From: Mycolicibacterium sarraceniae
GTDB lineage: Bacteria; Actinomycetota; Actinomycetes; Mycobacteriales; Mycobacteriaceae
Length of the DNA: 64,000 bases
Direction: 5' to 3'
NCBI RefSeq assembly: GCF_010731875.1
Contig: NZ_AP022595.1
Coordinates: 3,472,001 to 3,536,000, forward strand
Shown piece by piece: positions 490 through 9,582 of the stretch (positions within the stretch are counted from its first letter, which is position 1; each line of letters starts with the position of its first letter). The notes beneath the pieces are model-generated. The model did not search any database. It had not been told where the DNA came from and saw only the letters and a list, made by a program, of their open reading frames with translations. Position numbers and translations under genes: made by a program.

Positions 490-1113
490 GTGGACTTCGA
501 CTGGGGCGTCATCAGCGCCGACGAGCACGACCGGATCGGTGCGCTGCACGAGCCGCTGGCCGAGGCGATACGCAGGCTCGTCGACGCCAGCCTGCACAGC
601 GGCGCCGACGCGGAGACAATCATGGCGGCCCGGCAGACCATCGACGAGGTCACCGAGATGCTCGAGCGCACACCGACTGACCGGCCGCGGGTACTGCGGC
701 ACGAGGGCACCGGCTTGCCGGTGGTGTGGCGCAACCCCGCTGTGGGACGGCACAATCCACTGGCCCCGCCAATGGAGACCCATCATGACGAGGGCCGGGT
801 GTGGACGGAGTTCACATTGGGGTCGGTCTACGAGGGGCCGCCCGGTCTGGTGCACGGTGGCATCTGCGCGCTGCTGCTCGATCAGCTTCTCGGTGAGGTT
901 GCGACCAGGCAGCTGAGCAAGCCCAAGTTCACCGGCACGATCACGCTGAAGTACCTGCGCGGCACACCGCTGGGCCCCTTGCGCGGCGAGGCGTGGGTCG
1001 AGGGGCACGAGGGTTACAAGACATATGCGCGCGGATTTCTGCGCGACGCACAGGGAATCACCGTAGAAGCAGAAGGAGTTTTCATTATGCCGGCGTGGGC
1101 GAGGGATGCATGA
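490..1113 (+). CDS. PaaI/hotdog-fold thioesterase family protein
   Basis: 207 aa with a GTG start 5 nt after the glnE stop, so probably co-transcribed with it. The C-terminal 120 residues look like a hotdog acyl-CoA thioesterase domain: GPPGLVHGGICALLLDQLLG carries the typical H-G-G followed by an Asp in the long helix, then strand-forming segments (TITLKYLRGTPLG, YARGFLRDAQG). The N-terminal ~85 residues are helical and charged. It would hydrolyse an acyl-CoA or similar thioester in the cytoplasm; the substrate cannot be read from sequence. Its stop overlaps the next start in an ATGA, suggesting translational coupling to the following oxidoreductase. Confidence 0.8.
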   Translation: MDFDWGVISADEHDRIGALHEPLAEAIRRLVDASLHSGADAETIMAARQTIDEVTEMLERTPTDRPRVLRHEGTGLPVVWRNPAVGRHNPLAPPMETHHDEGRVWTEFTLGSVYEGPPGLVHGGICALLLDQLLGEVATRQLSKPKFTGTITLKYLRGTPLGPLRGEAWVEGHEGYKTYARGFLRDAQGITVEAEGVFIMPAWARDA

Positions 1114-1970
1114 AGTTCTATGTCAGCGTTGCGTTCCTGGAGACCAGCGAGATCATCGAGATCGCCAAGGCCGCCGATGATTTGGGCTATGAAGGTCTCG
1201 GCATCCCCGATCACGTGGTGAACCTGGAAACCCTGGCCACCCCATACCCATACACCAAGAACGGCGAGCGGCGCTGGCAGCCGTTCACCGACTGGCCAGA
1301 CCCGTGGGTGCTGGTCGGTGCGCTGGCTCAGGCCACAAGTGAGATCAAGTTCGTGACGACGGTCTACATCCCGGGGATGCGCGACCCGTACTCTGCCGCC
1401 AAATCGATTGGCACCGCGGCCTATCTGGCCAACGGCCGGGTGGAACTCGGCATCGGCGTCGGCTGGTGTGAGGAAGAGTTCACGCTGATGGGCCAGCAGT
1501 TCGCCAAGCGCGGCAAGCGCACCGACGAGATGATCGAGTTGATGAGGGCGCTGTGGCAGCCAGGCTGGACGGAGTTCGACGGCGAGTTCTATCAGACCCC
1601 GCGGCTGGAGATGATGCCGACGCCGCCGCACATCCCGATCTACAGCGGGGGACTCTCCGATATCGCGCTGCGCAGGGCCGCAGGCCTGGACGGCTGGATC
1701 GGCGATCTGATCAGCCTGGACCAGGCCATTCTGCGGGTCGAGAAGCTGCGTGAGCTACGCGCCCAAAACGGTTTGACGATGGACGGTTTCGAGATCCTGA
1801 CACCGCTGACCGACGCCTTCACCATTCCGCACTACGAGCGGGCGGCGGCCGCGGGCATCACCGGGATCGTGACGATGCCGTGGATGTTCTACTCCGGGCC
1901 GGATGCTTCGCTGGCGGAGAAGATTGACGGAATGCGACGATTCCGTAAGGATCTGGCGTTGGACGCCTAA
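1110..1970 (+). CDS. LLM-class F420-dependent oxidoreductase (TIGR03619-like)
   Basis: 286 aa. I chose the ATG at 1110, which overlaps the previous stop as ATGA; an in-frame upstream extension to 993 lies inside the thioesterase gene. The protein is a luciferase-like TIM barrel: N-terminal KFYVSVAFLETSEI, then DLGYEGLGIPDHV, the typical NGRVELGIGVGWCEEEF segment around residue 110, and GWIGDL near residue 195. Such proteins transfer hydride between cofactor F420 (sometimes flavin) and small organic substrates; mycobacteria have many and most are uncharacterised. Coupling to the thioesterase suggests a shared minor lipid or xenobiotic pathway (inference). The 280 bases after its stop, up to 2250, show nothing recognisable. 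Confidence 0.82.
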   Translation: MKFYVSVAFLETSEIIEIAKAADDLGYEGLGIPDHVVNLETLATPYPYTKNGERRWQPFTDWPDPWVLVGALAQATSEIKFVTTVYIPGMRDPYSAAKSIGTAAYLANGRVELGIGVGWCEEEFTLMGQQFAKRGKRTDEMIELMRALWQPGWTEFDGEFYQTPRLEMMPTPPHIPIYSGGLSDIALRRAAGLDGWIGDLISLDQAILRVEKLRELRAQNGLTMDGFEILTPLTDAFTIPHYERAAAAGITGIVTMPWMFYSGPDASLAEKIDGMRRFRKDLALDA

Positions 1971-2250
1971 TTGTTCACGGGTTGCAGCAGGTGCAGTGCC
2001 GTGGGTCGGTGACTGACAAATGCTGCAGGGCAAGCCGCCCTTAGTGTCGATGTGGCCGAATCCCGTTGTGCCGCAGCTCGGTCAGGCGGGAAAGAGCCGC
2101 TTTGCGAGACTCCGACCCAAGCGGGTCAGGATGATTCGTCGGCTGGGGTTGTGATGGGCGCGCAAGTCGGGCTCGACGACCGCGGTGTCGTCCGGTGAGC
2201 TGCTTACCGTCCGGCCGACCGCGATCAATGCTCCGCGGTAGGGGTGAGCA

Positions 2251-2547
2251 TCAGGCTGACCCGTCGGTGCCCGCAGGTTCATGAAGCACCGCCAGGATCT
2301 CGCCGATGTGATGACCGCGTTCCACGGGGTGCCGCAACGGGCGGTCGGCTCGGATCCGGTAGTAGTTGCGCCGGCCTTCCCGTAACCGATCCAGGTAACC
2401 GGCTGAGACCAGGTCGCTGACGATGCGTTGCGCCGCACGCTCGGTGACTCCGACCCGTTCGGCGACGTCGCGCAGCCGGATCCCGGGGTCGCGGGCGATG
2501 CACAGCAGGGTGTGAGCGTGGTTGGTCAAGAACGTCCACTCCGCCAT
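2251..2547 (-). CDS. Winged helix-turn-helix transcriptional regulator (MarR/ArsR-like)
   Basis: 98 aa, ATG start. A single compact winged-helix domain: TFLTNHAHTLLCIARDPGIR (helix 1), LRDVAERVGVTERAAQRIV (helix-turn-helix, about residues 25-45), SDLVSAGYLDRLREGRRNYY (recognition helix end and wing with the basic RRNYYRI hairpin). No ligand or metal domain is visible, only a short tail. It is transcribed divergently from the dab operon with 116 bp between the start codons, so it is the obvious candidate regulator of dabB-dabA-PII-carbonic anhydrase (inference from position). The length is usual for this type of one-domain regulator. Confidence 0.78.
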   Translation of the reverse strand: MAEWTFLTNHAHTLLCIARDPGIRLRDVAERVGVTERAAQRIVSDLVSAGYLDRLREGRRNYYRIRADRPLRHPVERGHHIGEILAVLHEPAGTDGSA

Positions 2548-2635
2548 ACCGGAATTTTAGTTCCCCAATAGCAAGACAGGAAATGCGCCGCGCCCGGCGA
2601 TCATCGACACACATGCGATTCATAATTCCAGAAGC

Positions 2636-2664
2636 TTGACACACGTTATACAATACACGTAATT
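2636..2664 (+). promoter_or_regulatory. Candidate promoter/operator of the dab operon
   Basis: The intergenic DNA contains an AT-rich island unusual for the region. TATACAAT at 2647-2654 is a good -10 candidate, which would start transcription near 2661 and leave almost no leader before the TTG at 2664 or the ATG at 2673. A TTGACA lies at 2636-2641 but is too close to that -10 to be its -35. A direct repeat ACACGT occurs at 2641-2646 and 2655-2660, centred on the -10, and could be where the divergent regulator binds. No Shine-Dalgarno sequence is visible. All of this is pattern inference. Confidence 0.4.
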
Positions 2665-4202
2665 TGCGTCGCATGTTGAGCATCTCAAGCGCCGGCCTGA
2701 TGGCAATGCTGGTGGTGCCGGCGGCGATGGCGCTGGGTGCGGGCACCTTCGGCTCGCGGCACTCCCGGGCATGGGGCCGGGCAGGTGCTCTGACCGCCGG
2801 ACTGGGGTTCCTCGGAGCCTGCGCCATGGCCGTCCAAGCCGCGAGTGGAACGCCCGCCTCGGCCACGGTCGCCGGGCTCGTCGTGTCGGCCGATCGCCTT
2901 GCGGCAGTGCTGTTGTTGCTGGTGTTCGGGGTCAGCTCGGTGGTCCAAGCCTTCGCGGTCCGCTATCTCGCCGGTGATCCGCGGGCCGCCTGGTTCACCG
3001 TGGGGGCGTCCCTGTTGACGTCGGCCTCGGCCGGGCTGGTCACGTCCGCGACCCTGGTGGGCCTGGCCGCAAGCTGGACCGTCGCCGGCGTCGCGCTCTG
3101 CCTGCTGCTCGGCATGTACTGGCACCTTCCCGCGGCACGAGACGGGGTACGACGGACCGCGACCGCGTTCCTGATCGGCGATCTCGTGCTGTGGACGGCA
3201 GTGGGCATCTCCACCGCGCGCTGGGGTGCGATCGACCTGCGCACCCTCGGTGCCGACCGACCCGACGGGCCATTGCTGCCGGTGATCGCCGGCCTGATCG
3301 TGGTGGCCGCGCTGTCCCGGTCGGCCCAGATTCCCTTTCATCGATGGCTGCCCGCCACCCTTGCGGCACCCACCCCGGTGTCCGCGCTGCTGCACGCCGG
3401 CGTGGTCAACGCCGGTGGCATCCTCCTGGTGCGGCTGGCCCCCCTGGTCACCGGTGAACTCGCCCGCGGACTGACGATCACCGCCGGCGCTCTCACCATG
3501 GTCTACGCGACGGTGATCATGCTGGTGAAGCCCGACATCAAAGGCGCACTGGCGAATTCGACCATGGCGCAGATGGGCTTCATGATCCTCACCTGCGGAC
3601 TGGGGCTGTGGGGCGCGACGGTCTTTCACCTCGTCGCGCACGGGTTCTACAAGGCCACGCTGTTCCTGTCCTCAGGTTCGGCGATCGCCCAGCGGCGACG
3701 CGCAGCTTCGCGCCCGCCGATGCCCGCTATCACTGCCCGGCGGCGCGCGCTCAGCGTGGCCGCCGCGGTCGCGCTGCCGGCCATCGCCCTGTACGCGGCC
3801 GTCCGGGTGATCCCCCTGACTGTCGGCGACCACACCGCCGAACCGGCGTTGCTGATCTTCGCGTGGGCCACCGGCGCGGCCGCCACGTGGGGCTGGTTGG
3901 CGCGGCGTCGCAGCATCGGTGCCGCCCTCTCGGCCGCGGCGGTGCTGCTGCCGGTCGCCCTGGCCTACCGCGCGTTGGTGGCCGCGGTCAGCGGATTCCT
4001 TGCTCCCGCACTGCCTGCCGAGGCGGCACCGGCCGCGCTTGCTTGGCTGGTCACCGGCACCGCCTGCGCGGTACTGGCCGGTCTGGCGGTGCTGCGGTGG
4101 ATGCCCGCGACCGTGCTGCACCGCGCCGTGTATGCGCGAGCCATCAGTGCCGGCCATCTCCAGATGCCGGTGCTCGCTCAACCGAAAGGAGTACGTTCAT
4201 GA
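2664..4202 (+). CDS. dabB: DabB: proton-conducting subunit of the DAB inorganic-carbon accumulation complex (NuoL/MrpA-like)
   Basis: 512 aa from the TTG at 2664; the ATG at 2673, three codons later, is an equally good start. About 13 hydrophobic segments. The middle carries hallmarks of the proton-translocating complex I/Mrp family: IPFHRWLPATLAAPTPVSAL (with the following LLHAG), and a lysine-containing KPDIKGALANSTMAQMGFM helix, then HLVAHGFYKATLF. The length fits DabB rather than full NuoL (over 600 aa). DabB energises the DAB complex by ion flow while DabA hydrates CO2, trapping bicarbonate (known from Halothiobacillus and homologous pairs). It overlaps dabA by ATGA. The pairing with dabA makes the assignment much stronger than NuoL similarity alone; no other complex I genes are nearby. 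Confidence 0.9.
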   Translation: MRRMLSISSAGLMAMLVVPAAMALGAGTFGSRHSRAWGRAGALTAGLGFLGACAMAVQAASGTPASATVAGLVVSADRLAAVLLLLVFGVSSVVQAFAVRYLAGDPRAAWFTVGASLLTSASAGLVTSATLVGLAASWTVAGVALCLLLGMYWHLPAARDGVRRTATAFLIGDLVLWTAVGISTARWGAIDLRTLGADRPDGPLLPVIAGLIVVAALSRSAQIPFHRWLPATLAAPTPVSALLHAGVVNAGGILLVRLAPLVTGELARGLTITAGALTMVYATVIMLVKPDIKGALANSTMAQMGFMILTCGLGLWGATVFHLVAHGFYKATLFLSSGSAIAQRRRAASRPPMPAITARRRALSVAAAVALPAIALYAAVRVIPLTVGDHTAEPALLIFAWATGAAATWGWLARRRSIGAALSAAAVLLPVALAYRALVAAVSGFLAPALPAEAAPAALAWLVTGTACAVLAGLAVLRWMPATVLHRAVYARAISAGHLQMPVLAQPKGVRS

Positions 4203-6745
4203 CCCACTCTGACGCCCAACGCGCTCGGCTGCGCAGTGACGTCGCGATCGCAGCGCGGGTGTTGCCCACCCACTATCCGCTGGAGACGTTCATCGCGGTC
4301 AACCCGCTGGCCGGTCTGGAGGGCATGCCCTTCGAGCTGGCGATCCGGCGGGCTGGCGACCTGTACGGCATGCCGGGCACTCTGCCGCTTCACACCTTCC
4401 GCAATCTGCACATGGCGGGCCGGATAACCGACGCCGACCTGGATGCGGCGTTGCTGCGCCGTTACCCCAACCTCGGCGCGGCGCCCGCACTGAGCCTGGG
4501 TGCGCTGGAGGTCACTGCGCTGGAACTGATGAGGGCCGATCTGCTGTGCGGCACCGGGGCACCGGAACCACTGCGGCGGTCCCGAATTCGGTCCGAGCAG
4601 CACGCCCCGCGGCTCGCGGCCAGTGTCGACGACCAGGCGGCCAAATGGTGCTCGGCCTTCTTTGGGTACGGCGCGTGGCCGATGCCCGGCCGGGAGGACG
4701 GCTTCTACGCCGCCTGGCGTGCCCTGGCTGCCGGGGACCCCACCCTCAAGCGCAGAGTCCGGGCGCGGTTGCGCGGGACGGCACCGCGGCCCGACGACGC
4801 GGTACTGGCGGCCTTGTCCGCGCTGGACGTCGGGGACTCGGCTCGGATCGCCTACCTGCAGGCGCACCTGACCCGCCTGCCCGGCTGGGCAGCGCACATT
4901 CAGTGGTGCGCGGGCCGGGGCGCCGGGATCGACCTTCTGCAGTACCTCGCGATGCGGCTGGCCTACGAGACTGCCCTGCTGGCCGGTCATCGCGCCGCCG
5001 CCGTCGAGCAGATCCCGGCGCCGCTGCCCTCGGCGCGGGAACGGGCCACTCATCTCGAGCGGGTGTGGGGGTTGACCGCCGTCACCGACCAGCAACGCGC
5101 CGCTGCCGCGAGGGTGCTCTCGGCCCTGCCGGTGACGGCACGAGACATGCTGTGGCAGAACGCGTTCGAGGGTAGCTACCGGGATCAGCTGCTGGTCGGA
5201 CTGGAGCGCAGCGGTGCATCCGGCAGCGCCGGGCCGGTGCATACCCAATTGGTGACCTGCATCGACACCCGATCGGAGGGGCTGCGCCGCCACCTGGAGT
5301 CACTCGGGGGCTACCAGTCCCTCGGCTTCGCCGGGTTCTTCGCGGTCGCCATCCGCTTCTCGGACCTGCTCGGGGGAACCCCCAGCGACCTCTGCCCGGT
5401 ACTTATCGCGCCAAGCCACGACATCCGGGAAACATCCGCACCGCACACCGCCGAACAGGCGGCGAGGCGAGTGTCAGGGGTCCTGCGCCTGGCCGGTGCC
5501 GAGTCGGCATTCCACGCCGCCAAAGAGGCGCTGGCCGCACCTTTCGTGCTGGCCGAGGTGTCCGGCTGGGCTTCGGCTCCGCTGTCGGTGGCCAAGACAC
5601 TGGCGCCTGCGGCCAGCGGCGGCATCCGCAACCGTCTGCACCGCCTGATGGTGCCCGATGCTCCCACCGTGCTGAACGTCGACGCCATACCGCTGGCCGA
5701 GCGGGCCCTGTTCGCGCAGGTGGCGCTCACCACCATGGGGCTGGTCAGCGGGTTCGGCCGCCTGGTGGTCTTCGCCGGACACGGCAGCTCGACCGAGAAC
5801 AATCCCTACCAGGCGGCGCTGGACTGCGGTGCCTGCGGGGGACAGCCGGGAGGTCCCAACGCCCGGACGGCAGCGATGATCCTCAACCAGCCCCAGGTGC
5901 GGGAGGAACTGCGGGCGGTGGGAATCGACATCCCCGACAGCACGTATTTCCTGGCCGCACAACACGACACCGCGACAGATCAGGTCGCGATTCTCGATCG
6001 GCACTTGATCCCGCCGGATCACTACGGGGATGTTGAGCGGCTCGGCGCCGACCTGGTCCGCGCCGGTAGCGAGCTGGCAGCCGAGCGCTGCGCGACGCTG
6101 CCCGGCGCGCGGCGCGGCCTCACACCGCGACGGGCGGCCCGCCACGTTGCGGCCAGGTCACTCGACTGGGCCCAGGTCTATCCCGAGTGGGGGCTGGCCG
6201 GCAACGCCGCCTTCATCGTCGCCCCCCGCGACGTCACCGCCGGCCTGGATCTGAAGCGCCGTACCTTCCTGCACTCCTACCGGGCTGACGTCGACAAGGA
6301 CGGCACCGCACTGGAGACCATCCTCACCGCGCCGCTGGTGGTCGCGCAGTGGATCAACTGCCAGTACTACTTCTCGACGGTCGCCCCGGAGGTATTCGGG
6401 GCAGGCACCAAGACTGTCCACAACGTGGTCGGCACCGCGGGGGTGATCACCGGGTACAGCGGCGATCTACGCCTCGGCTTGCCCTGGCAATCGCTGGCCG
6501 ACGGGTACCAGCTGCGGCACGAACCGCTTCGGCTGCTGGCCGCGATCCAGGCGCCGCTGACCCGGATCGACATGATCGTCGAGCGCAACCCGATCCTGGA
6601 AGATCTGTTCGGCAACGACTGGGTCGCGGTGGCCGCCCGGGCGGACGGCAACGCGCCATGGCACCGATGGAGTCGCTGCGGTTGGCGGCCCTGGTTCGAA
6701 TCCGATTCCACACCAACAATTCTCGATGAGGAGATGGCGTCATGA
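4199..6745 (+). CDS. dabA: DabA: cytoplasmic carbonic-anhydrase-like subunit of the DAB complex (UPF0753/DUF2309)
   Basis: 848 aa. The ATG at 4199 overlaps the dabB stop and follows a strong ribosome site (AAAGGAG, 4183-4189); the frame is open further upstream but only antisense-like inside dabB. N-terminal HYPLETFIAVNPLAGLEGMP is typical of the family. The beta-carbonic-anhydrase-like zinc site is intact: Cys354 and Asp356 with Arg358 in VTCIDTRSEG, His528 in FAGHGSSTENNP, and Cys543 in LDCGACGGQPGG. The His-to-Cys spacing of 15 matches the characterised Halothiobacillus DabA (C351, D353, H524, C539). C-terminal YFSTVAPEVFGAGTKTVHNV is also conserved. DabA hydrates CO2 on the cytoplasmic side, coupled to DabB. 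It overlaps the next gene by ATGA. Confidence 0.93.
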   Translation: MTHSDAQRARLRSDVAIAARVLPTHYPLETFIAVNPLAGLEGMPFELAIRRAGDLYGMPGTLPLHTFRNLHMAGRITDADLDAALLRRYPNLGAAPALSLGALEVTALELMRADLLCGTGAPEPLRRSRIRSEQHAPRLAASVDDQAAKWCSAFFGYGAWPMPGREDGFYAAWRALAAGDPTLKRRVRARLRGTAPRPDDAVLAALSALDVGDSARIAYLQAHLTRLPGWAAHIQWCAGRGAGIDLLQYLAMRLAYETALLAGHRAAAVEQIPAPLPSARERATHLERVWGLTAVTDQQRAAAARVLSALPVTARDMLWQNAFEGSYRDQLLVGLERSGASGSAGPVHTQLVTCIDTRSEGLRRHLESLGGYQSLGFAGFFAVAIRFSDLLGGTPSDLCPVLIAPSHDIRETSAPHTAEQAARRVSGVLRLAGAESAFHAAKEALAAPFVLAEVSGWASAPLSVAKTLAPAASGGIRNRLHRLMVPDAPTVLNVDAIPLAERALFAQVALTTMGLVSGFGRLVVFAGHGSSTENNPYQAALDCGACGGQPGGPNARTAAMILNQPQVREELRAVGIDIPDSTYFLAAQHDTATDQVAILDRHLIPPDHYGDVERLGADLVRAGSELAAERCATLPGARRGLTPRRAARHVAARSLDWAQVYPEWGLAGNAAFIVAPRDVTAGLDLKRRTFLHSYRADVDKDGTALETILTAPLVVAQWINCQYYFSTVAPEVFGAGTKTVHNVVGTAGVITGYSGDLRLGLPWQSLADGYQLRHEPLRLLAAIQAPLTRIDMIVERNPILEDLFGNDWVAVAARADGNAPWHRWSRCGWRPWFESDSTPTILDEEMAS

Positions 6746-7065
6746 ACGTACCGACCCTGACCAAGATGATAAAGATCGAGGTGGTGGTCCCCGGAGGTGA
6801 CGCCTCGGCTGTCCGTGAGCTGATCCAAAGCGTCGGTGCCACCGGCTTCACCAGCCTGTCCGGCGTGTCGGGACTCGGACATCACGGCTACCGGCAGGGC
6901 CGGCTGCTGTTCAACCAGCAGGCGGCCCTGGAATTACTCATCACCGTGGTCCCGGAATCCAAAGCCGACGCGCTGCTGGCCGGTCTGCGGCCGCTGCTGG
7001 ACGCCTCGTCCGGGGTGATGTTCGTGACTGAAACCTACGTCAGTCGACCCGAGTACTTCAGCTGA
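6742..7065 (+). CDS. PII-like signalling protein encoded in the dab operon
   Basis: 107 aa; ATG overlaps the dabA stop (ATGA) after GAGGAG. The sequence fits the PII ferredoxin-like fold: strand KMIKIEVVVPGG, helix DASAVRELIQSVGATGFTSL, a T-loop-like stretch SGLGHHGYRQGR, strand LELLITVVPES, helix KADALLAGLRPLLD, and strand GVMFVTETYVSR. It lacks the Tyr-containing T-loop sequence and the C-terminal RTGERG of classical GlnB/GlnK, so it belongs with the divergent PII-like proteins that accompany inorganic-carbon transporters, for example SbtB with SbtA (family knowledge). By position it probably senses a nucleotide and/or bicarbonate and controls DabAB; the ligand is unknown. Confidence 0.75.
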   Translation: MNVPTLTKMIKIEVVVPGGDASAVRELIQSVGATGFTSLSGVSGLGHHGYRQGRLLFNQQAALELLITVVPESKADALLAGLRPLLDASSGVMFVTETYVSRPEYFS

Positions 7066-7096
7066 GAATGCACACCCACGAAGAAAGGGAAACACC

Positions 7097-7708
7097 ATGT
7101 CCGACCCTCTGATCGCTTGGCAGCGCCTGCGTGCTGGCAACGAGCTTTTCTTCGCCCCGGTCCGCGGTCGCCGCGGCGAGCCGGTTGTCGACCAGCCAAT
7201 CGCGGCGGTATTCCGTTGCGCCGACGCCCCAATCGGAAGCGAGATGGTTCTGGGCCAGAGCTGGGGTTCCCTGCTCGATGTCAGCACGTGGGGGCATGTG
7301 ATCGATGCCGGTGTCCTGGCCACGATGGAATACGCGGTCGAAACGCTCGAAGTGCCGCTGATCGTGGTGCTCGGCCACAACGAATGCGCAGCCATGCGCG
7401 CCGCGCTGCGGGCTTGGGATGAAGCGGTGATACCCGAAGGAGCCACCAGGACCGCTGTCCAACAGGCGCTGTCGTCGATCGTTCGGCGGGGTGCCGGCGC
7501 AGACTCCGTCGATACGGTCACCGCCGCGCATATCGTCGAGGTGGGTGTGGCGTTGCTGGAGCGCTCTCCCGTCATCGCTCGGCGCGTCGACGCCGGTCGA
7601 TGCGGGATCATTTGCACTGCAACAGATTGCAACAGCGGACTGTTGCGCACCCACGCCACCATCGGACCGGTCGGCGAAGCGCCCGACGACCTGCTGGAGT
7701 GCGTGTGA
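7097..7708 (+). CDS. Beta-class carbonic anhydrase with altered Asp-Arg pair
   Basis: 203 aa, ATG at 7097 behind AAGAAAGGGA, 31 nt after the PII-like gene, last gene of the dab operon. The beta-CA zinc ligands are all present: Cys41 in VFRCADAPIG, His94 and Cys97 in LGHNECAAM. Asp43 of the catalytic dyad is kept, but the usual C-x-D-S-R reads C-A-D-A-P: Pro45 replaces the arginine that holds Asp away from zinc. The rest resembles the mycobacterial enzyme (YAVETLEVPLIVVLGHNEC). It may interconvert CO2 and bicarbonate delivered by DabAB, or be a low-activity or structural relative. The fold is secure; activity is uncertain because of the missing Arg. Confidence 0.82.
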   Translation: MSDPLIAWQRLRAGNELFFAPVRGRRGEPVVDQPIAAVFRCADAPIGSEMVLGQSWGSLLDVSTWGHVIDAGVLATMEYAVETLEVPLIVVLGHNECAAMRAALRAWDEAVIPEGATRTAVQQALSSIVRRGAGADSVDTVTAAHIVEVGVALLERSPVIARRVDAGRCGIICTATDCNSGLLRTHATIGPVGEAPDDLLECV

Positions 7709-7911
7709 GGCTTACGATGAGCGGGATGATGGTCGCCGATGGGGCGCTGCGGGTCGGCGATCCGCTTTTCGGCCACCGTTGCATCGGTGCCGTCGACATC
7801 ACCGCGCAGGTGTGCCTCCGCACAGTGGTCGAACAACCCCCGCGGACGGGTTCGTAGCGGGTTCGGAATTTGTCGTCCTGCCAGACTTCACGTGCTTGAC
7901 AGCCATGCGGT
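7709..7911. other. Non-coding or degraded DNA between the dab operon and the doxX remnant
   Basis: With the doxX remnant and terminator it forms a gene-poor stretch of 437 bp (7709-8145). Short open frames exist on the plus strand (for example a 46-codon frame opening at the ATG at 7717) but none has a recognisable domain, a clear ribosome site, or codon use convincing enough to call a gene. I see no terminator directly after the carbonic anhydrase stop. Best read as decayed DNA at the edge of the accessory block. Confidence 0.4.
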
Positions 7912-8084
7912 TCAGCGACGTCCGTGGGCGGCATCTACGGCGTAGGCGCCACCGCCGGTGAACACCAGTAGCAGGAATCCGAAGCATATGGCGACGGCGA
8001 GTTCGCCGCCATTGACGACCGGCCAGAAGCTCTTCTCGATGTGTTGGGTGAAGTAGGCGACGGCCATTTGCAGCGTCAACACTT
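7912..8084 (-). pseudogene. 3' remnant of a DoxX-family membrane protein gene
   Basis: On the minus strand about 55 codons read LQMAVAYFTQHIEKSFWPVV, then NGGELAVAICFGFLLLVFTG and a stop at 7912. This is the typical C-terminal quarter of DoxX proteins (the M-A-V-A-Y-F...FWP...NGGE signature followed by the last membrane helix). The N-terminal three membrane helices are missing: upstream of 8084 the frame runs into unrelated sequence and then the glnA1 terminator. It is therefore a truncated remnant, not an intact gene. DoxX proteins are small inner-membrane proteins of the quinone/thiol redox type. The family call rests on motif memory. Confidence 0.7.
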
Positions 8085-8096
8085 TTCGCCTAGAAA

Positions 8097-8140
8097 GACG
8101 AAACCACCCGTACCGCATTGCGGCACGGGTGGGCTTCGTC
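8097..8140 (-). terminator. Long hairpin downstream of glnA1
   Basis: An inverted repeat begins GACGAAACCACCCGTACCGC and closes with GCGGCACGGGTGGGCTTCGTC around a 3-nt ATT loop, about 20 bp of stem with two mismatches. It sits 5 nt after the glnA1 stop on the minus strand. There is no long T-tract, as is usual in mycobacteria, but position and strength fit a transcription terminator for glnA1. It also ends the doxX remnant. Confidence 0.75.
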
Positions 8141-8145
8141 AGGCG

Positions 8146-9582
<1,437 letters not shown>

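Follow-up and report, generated by a model that had tools for sequence, protein, structure and literature searches.

The stretch of DNA analyzed here, the window, comprises 64,000 nucleotides of the Mycolicibacterium sarraceniae genome (contig NZ_AP022595.1, positions 3,472,001 to 3,536,000), and this report concerns a dab operon near its start. The operon encodes DabB and DabA, the two subunits of a putative vectorial inorganic-carbon pump, together with a PII-like protein and a protein related to the β-carbonic anhydrases (CAs; hereafter the CA-like protein), and it faces a divergent gene for a one-domain winged-helix regulator. An earlier sequence-only reading had described this arrangement, and its five genes all lie where it placed them (Table 1), with Pfam agreeing for each: the scores are 776 bits for DabA (PF10070), 120 for Proton_antipo_M in DabB, 60 for P-II, 71 for Pro_CA and 30 for HTH_24. 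Its description of a DAB module that has its own PII-like gene and a divergently oriented regulator gene is likewise supported. DabA (PF10070) is encoded next to DabB (PF00361), the pairing that marks a DAB / DAC system. Two ATGA overlaps join dabB to dabA (4199-4202) and dabA to the PII-like gene (6742-6745), and the CA-like gene, which has its own ribosome-binding-like sequence, follows after a further 31 bases.

Table 1. Features of the dab locus (window coordinates).
Feature	Position	Strand	Remarks
Winged-helix regulator gene, 98 aa	2251-2547	-	Divergent from dabB; HTH_24, MarR_2 and HTH_IclR above the Pfam cut-off
Promoter-like box TTGACA-N18-TAATTT	2636-2665	+	Ends 7 bases 5' of ATG 2673; read from the sequence
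dabB, proton-channel-like membrane subunit	2673-4202	+	Pfam PF00361, PF00662; listed open reading frame opens at TTG 2664
dabA, β-CA-like catalytic subunit of vectorial pump	4199-6745	+	Pfam PF10070, 776 bits
PII-like regulator gene	6742-7065	+	Pfam P-II, 60 bits; closest solved relative PDB 5d4n
CA-like gene, β-CA fold, probable pseudoenzyme	7097-7708	+	Pro_CA, 71 bits; dyad Arg replaced by P45 (7229-7231)
DUF6671 gene remnant, decayed	2004-2261	-	Just 3' of the regulator gene; lacks its N-terminal part and has an in-frame stop

By its residues the transporter half can be classed as a DAB, because both subunits match the solved and mutagenized DAB2 of Halothiobacillus neapolitanus (PDB 9rd0; PMC13144422) at the catalytic and proton-path positions. 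DabA has a single relative in the PDB at E <= 0.001, the DabA2 subunit of that complex (E 1.6e-108), and in a 68-sequence alignment the two agree at 16 of the 17 positions checked, every catalytic one included, which bears out the earlier claim that DabA carries CA-like active-site residues. Its zinc ligands C354, H528 and C543 correspond to C351, H524 and C539 of DAB2, its dyad D356 and R358 to D353 and R355, S359 to S356, the finger glutamate E453 to E444, and H589, D594 and L666 to H585, D590 and L658; six further pocket or tunnel residues are identical. The zinc ligands, the Asp-Arg dyad and the finger glutamate are moreover identical in all 67 rows of the alignment other than DAB2, and the available part of PMC13144422 reports that an R355A mutation impairs DAB2 function. 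A lysine that a pairwise alignment had placed at the essential E444 of DAB2 was dropped, as the multiple alignment places glutamate there in every sequence. DabB aligns to DabB2 of 9rd0 at 1.3e-34, and seven mutagenized proton-path residues (S240, H244, K293, S299, H322, H326 and K330, read by eye) are identical; the ion-pair set is kept in part (DAB2 D185 is D173 and K235 is R219), and I151 of DAB2 is T139. What the two systems share is thus the DabB-DabA pair with its zinc site, dyad, finger glutamate and proton-path residues; what the window adds to DAB2 is the dedicated PII-like gene, the winged-helix regulator and the CA-like protein.

The PII-like protein belongs to the PII family over its full length, matching PDB 5d4n by phmmer at 3e-18 across residues 1-106 of 107. 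We take 5d4n to be CPII, a bicarbonate-regulated PII-like protein, from which the window protein differs in being encoded in a DAB operon and not in a carboxysome locus. Among 68 named dab loci, a set retrieved by patterns based on mycobacterial DabA and therefore biased towards close relatives, a PII gene lies directly after dabA in 58, the other ten being nine contig ends and one decayed dabA. Winged-helix matches, 42-98% identical, are present in 56/68 of these loci, sometimes after the operon or away from dabB, and a PHROGs search with the regulator matched only generic regulators.

The fourth gene had been read as a β-CA, and this holds for its family, by sequence and by predicted fold, but not for its catalytic dyad, which lacks the arginine. 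Where canonical β-CAs carry the motifs C-x-D-x-R and H-x-x-C, the window protein reads C-A-D-A-P and H-N-E-C: the three zinc ligands (C41, H94 and C97) and the dyad aspartate D43 are kept, whereas the arginine is P45. The missing residue corresponds to R355 of DAB2, at which the change to alanine impairs function (PMC13144422). Relative to the CanB-type β-CA Rv3588c (PDB 1ym3, 2a5v), the dyad arginine, the transition-state glutamine and the RTAGH motif are all replaced, and the gene is encoded with dab. Residues were counted in the best 120 of 371 protein matches, the window's own included. In these the Cys, Asp, His, Cys set is kept in 120/120 and the dyad arginine is absent from 120/120, its place being taken by Gly, Ala, Asp, Pro, Glu and others; the glutamine position is unconserved, and the positions of RTAGH are occupied by Ser (119/120), Thr (110), Trp, Gly and His (120 each). 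The Ser and Trp of this motif are S63 and W65 in the window protein, and they align with R64 and V66, respectively, of the Haemophilus influenzae CA (numbering counted by eye), the latter of which is taken to be the pocket valine that PMC13144422, in the part available, names for the Pseudomonas aeruginosa enzyme.

The same pattern holds for the copies that lie after PII in dab operons, of which 51 are distinct (59 open reading frames less nine loci from repeat genomes, giving 50, plus the window). The dyad arginine is lost in 49/51, with eleven different residues in its place, while the Cys, Asp, His, Cys set is kept in 44/51, 43 of these without the arginine, and the pocket tryptophan in 50/51. 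Four M. gordonae-type copies have serine for both zinc cysteines, and three others have lost the aspartate or one cysteine. The Arg-bearing copies among the 51 are that of M. arenosum (locus L095) and one of a tandem pair in locus L028 (7413-8856), in which one copy lacks the arginine and the other has it but has lost a zinc Cys; both members of the pair are counted in the 51, and a plasmid copy discussed below (L104) stands outside them. Other CA open reading frames in the same fetched loci keep the arginine in 15/16 (a raw count that includes same-genome duplicates). The window genome itself encodes two further β-CAs elsewhere, a SulP-CA fusion and a CanB-type CA to which the CA-like protein is ~40% identical, both with the dyad arginine, and another β-CA match is found in all 61 dabA genomes of the genus. 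The sequence-only reading had called the module self-contained by virtue of its CA; with the dyad arginine, the glutamine position and the usual pocket residue lost, and two Arg-bearing β-CAs elsewhere in the genome, that claim is not supported. A fold search among viral proteins returned two giant-virus CAs below E 0.001. Separately, in a dab locus with PII from another family of the order (L032, genome G085), dabB faces a diverged CA-like gene without the arginine (2266-2652, minus strand, motif CADPQ), which on its sequence is a possible independent case of dyad arginine loss.

The CA-like gene is tightly linked to the pump. Its dab-linked form is present in 59 of the 61 dabA genomes of the genus and in 0/235 genus genomes without dabA (Fisher 2e-60, kinship of the genomes uncorrected; the zero applies to the matches listed, down to about 1e-35, and to the best E of each genome). 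In one of the two remaining dabA genomes (G176) the contig ends right after dabA; in the other (G113) dabA is decayed and PII is gone too. The score against the CA-like protein splits the 296 genus genomes cleanly, with at least 189 bits for the dab-linked form and at most 137 bits for other CAs, and the CA-like proteins form one clade with a support of 96/97 (in a tree built without the truncated CA of L032). The ratio of nonsynonymous to synonymous substitution rates (dN/dS) is 0.03-0.29 for the CA-like gene in 14 pairs chosen by hand and 0.10-0.24 for DabA in the same pairs, which points to purifying selection; even in two pairs of copies without both zinc cysteines it is 0.08 and 0.16. No internal stop was found in any of the 60 CA-like copies listed, although the gene does evolve faster than PII.

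A survey of the four-gene order among relatives, which the sequence-only reading had proposed, found dabB-dabA-PII-CA in 13/14 same-genus relatives with dabA, the fourteenth (L022) reaching a contig end inside PII; because the order recurs in this way, it cannot be put down to chance. That reading had also singled out the occurrence of the module in a mycobacterium. The module is indeed there, but it is not special to the window genome: dabA occurs in 15/60 genus genomes (own included) and 1/40 outside the genus among 100 relatives, in 61/296 genus genomes of a larger even sample, and, across the class, in 26/393 genomes, six of which belong to this genus. Outside the genus dabB-dabA-PII also occurs without the CA-like gene. 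The 45 named loci that have the gene come from mycobacteria or from metagenome-assembled genomes titled otherwise, of which there are six (L040, L042, L053, L086, L089 and L100). Conversely, in 11 loci without a mycobacterium in their titles and with a continuing contig, no CA was found directly after PII, and ten of these have a winged-helix match. Taken with the origin of the 45 loci that have it, this makes a gain of the CA-like gene within the mycobacterial line probable. Thirteen more distant, class-level actinobacterial dab loci gave no CA match (L119, among these, stops shortly after dabA), and a winged-helix match was present in 5/13; judged by gene content, the complete set characterizes close relatives and not all Actinobacteria.

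Within the genus the operon occupies more than one site. An F420-type LLM gene and glnA adjoin the window-type loci, canB-mutY adjoins dab in 10/72 loci compared (L054, L057, L060, L066, L070, L083, L085, L093, L102 and L025), and a 23.7 kb plasmid from a mine-sediment Mycolicibacterium aubagnense (L104, NZ_CP122998.1), typed as mobilizable (MOBF), carries genes for the winged helix, TerC, CBS, DUF6671, dabB, dabA, PII and the CA-like protein at 989-9010. Because of these several sites and the mobilizable plasmid, the dab operon has probably moved. The module thus occurs in environmental species, in slow growers such as M. gordonae, and on a small plasmid. Two loci show a damaged dabA: in M. 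ostraviense (L102 / L109) it is decayed and neither PII nor the CA-like gene is matched, and in M. helveticum (L093 / L110) its match is split in two, both PII and the CA-like gene being present. RuBisCO was not found in the window genome, a further difference from DAB2, and a coupling of dabA to RuBisCO in the genus was rejected (11/61 dabA genomes against 33/235 others, p = 0.42). Because of both results, the simplest use of the pump is presumably the service of ordinary carboxylases. The physiology put forward in the sequence-only reading, in which carboxylases of fatty and mycolic acid synthesis would be supplied at low CO2 or in alkaline surroundings, is a conjectural form of such service.

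Taken together, these results make it likely, in our view, that the locus is a DAB operon whose dedicated CA-like protein has turned into a non-catalytic accessory, most likely a regulatory one. DabB would conduct protons down the membrane gradient and so drive one-way hydration of CO2 in DabA, the PII-like protein would sense the energy or carbon state of the cell and tune the pump, and the winged-helix protein would control transcription from the shared divergent promoter. In type II β-CAs the dyad aspartate can close onto the zinc unless the arginine restrains it. Given this chemistry and the missing arginine, we infer that the zinc site of the CA-like protein is probably held closed by D43, with the arginine that would keep it off the metal gone and the tryptophan occupying a substrate-pocket position. 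The protein could then regulate by docking on the pump or on PII; or it could pair with the ordinary cytosolic CA and keep pumped bicarbonate from reverting to CO2. We tentatively suggest that a CanB-like paralogue in the closed zinc state prevents a futile cycle, either by inhibiting the cytosolic CA or by gating the pump in response to bicarbonate.

Between these two roles we see about equal odds. As a carbon sensor or docking subunit of a DAB-PII complex, the closed zinc site serving as a structural core or a bicarbonate sensor, the protein would be expected to depend strictly on dabA, as it does, and to be encoded close to PII, as it is, with zinc residues that outlast the arginine; the eleven non-mycobacterial dabB-dabA-PII loci that do without it, all but one of which show a winged-helix match, and its faster evolution than that of PII make this role somewhat unlikely. 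The other role is that of a brake, in which the CA-like protein may co-assemble with the cytosolic CanB-type CA into mixed oligomers and so switch it off while the pump runs. The shared identity of ~40% may not suffice for such co-assembly, the position of dab beside canB may be a chance of insertion in one lineage, and the conserved zinc site is left unexplained, so that the brake, argued here from sequence, is somewhat unlikely. That the gene is a mere passenger in decay would account for its degenerate active site and its rate relative to PII; it is disfavoured to the point of being very improbable by the low dN/dS, the intact reading frames and the conserved motif, and because the gene is missing only where dabA has decayed or the contig ends.

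The earlier view, in which the fourth gene is a working β-CA that brings CO2 and bicarbonate into equilibrium next to the pump, has several points in its favour: the predicted β-CA fold, zinc ligands in the window and in all of the 120 best homologues, the arginine together with all zinc ligands in L095 and on plasmid L104, and a putative CA directly 3' of MpsAB, a pair homologous to DabA-DabB, in some Firmicutes (PMC8552792, in the part available). Against it stand the loss of the arginine from nearly every operon copy in favour of so many substitutes, the lost glutamine position and the near-invariant tryptophan in the pocket, and the four copies that have shed both zinc cysteines, two pairs of which remain under selection. 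A CA in a pump operon would also be odd unless non-catalytic, because free CA would reconvert the supplied bicarbonate to CO2 and undo the pump, and two other CAs are already present in the genome. In Staphylococcus aureus with MpsAB, co-expression of a CA slightly reduced growth according to the same source, and because of this a working CA in a pump operon appears counterproductive; we regard it as unlikely. DabA-DabB might also be an MpsAB-like Na+/bicarbonate symporter and not a proton-driven CO2 hydratase, MpsAB having been proposed as such a symporter (PMC13144422, in the available part). The proton-path residues tested in DAB2 are kept, however, as are the zinc ligands and dyad that hydration requires, and that text describes DAB2 as fully active without sodium, which makes the symporter rather improbable here.

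Several observations weigh against a non-catalytic, regulatory CA-like protein within a DAB-type operon. The copies of M. arenosum L095 and the M. aubagnense plasmid L104 carry the full Cys, Asp, Arg, His, Cys set, and the strong conservation of the zinc residues is something that a pure scaffold would not need. Loss of the arginine may not abolish catalysis, because an archaeal β-CA without the dyad aspartate lost only a modest part of kcat, as far as the available part of PMC12018205 goes. One distant row in the tree of CA-like proteins carries a warning of long-branch joining, and PII, on which the regulatory reading partly rests, was detected in only 1/13 of the more distant actinobacterial dab loci. 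In the transporter itself the DAB2 tunnel residue R653 is Y661 in DabA, the sole mismatch among the 17 positions, and DAB2 R182 is L170 in DabB.

Because the conserved promoter-like box ends 7 bases before ATG 2673, dabB probably starts there and not at TTG 2664, on what is likely a leaderless message. TTGAC is invariant in 19/19 aligned divergent regions, chosen with the winged helix adjoining dabB; a consensus scan found no promoter-like site here, despite the box read by eye. Two ACACGT words, 8 bases apart, lie inside the dabB promoter region at 2641-2660 and are a possible site for the winged-helix regulator. On the other side of the regulator gene, the DUF6671 remnant matches DUF6671 proteins of five loci by tblastn (E 3e-19 to 4e-21). 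A DUF6671 match was found in the fetched stretch of 26/68 dab loci, with Pfam PF20376 confirmed for one, and the protein, which has Cys pairs, may belong to the DAB system as an optional component.

Some of this has precedent. Homologues of DAB or MpsAB are known in non-autotrophs and in Actinobacteria, M. tuberculosis being listed without MpsAB in the available part of PMC6689103. The homologous MpsAB pair of S. aureus (PMC6689103, PMC8552792) supplies carbon in a non-autotroph, as the window system would; S. aureus, unlike the window genome, has no CA. The putative CA directly 3' of MpsAB in S. sciuri, Bacillus anthracis and B. subtilis (PMC8552792) resembles the window order. For the reuse of a CA without catalysis there is CA VIII (PMC13253706), a catalytically inactive α-CA-related protein, which differs from the window protein in class, in being human and in having lost a metal-binding histidine rather than the dyad arginine, as described in the portion available.

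In the open-licence literature, searched by titles and abstract openings, we found no description of this operon or of a dab-linked CA without the dyad arginine. What is new here is accordingly the dab-linked CA that has lost its dyad arginine, DAB in non-autotrophs and a CA beside MpsAB being already known. Annotation by family as 'carbonic anhydrase' may mislabel the whole clade. The available text of PMC8552792 observes that a bicarbonate pump and a CA together make no sense in principle, yet some species have both. A CA-like protein that lacks the dyad arginine and stays strictly with the pump in mycobacteria offers a candidate answer to this conflict that can be tested. If the suggested prevention of a futile cycle proves true, a pump and a CA could coexist in one cytoplasm by a means that the literature searched does not describe.

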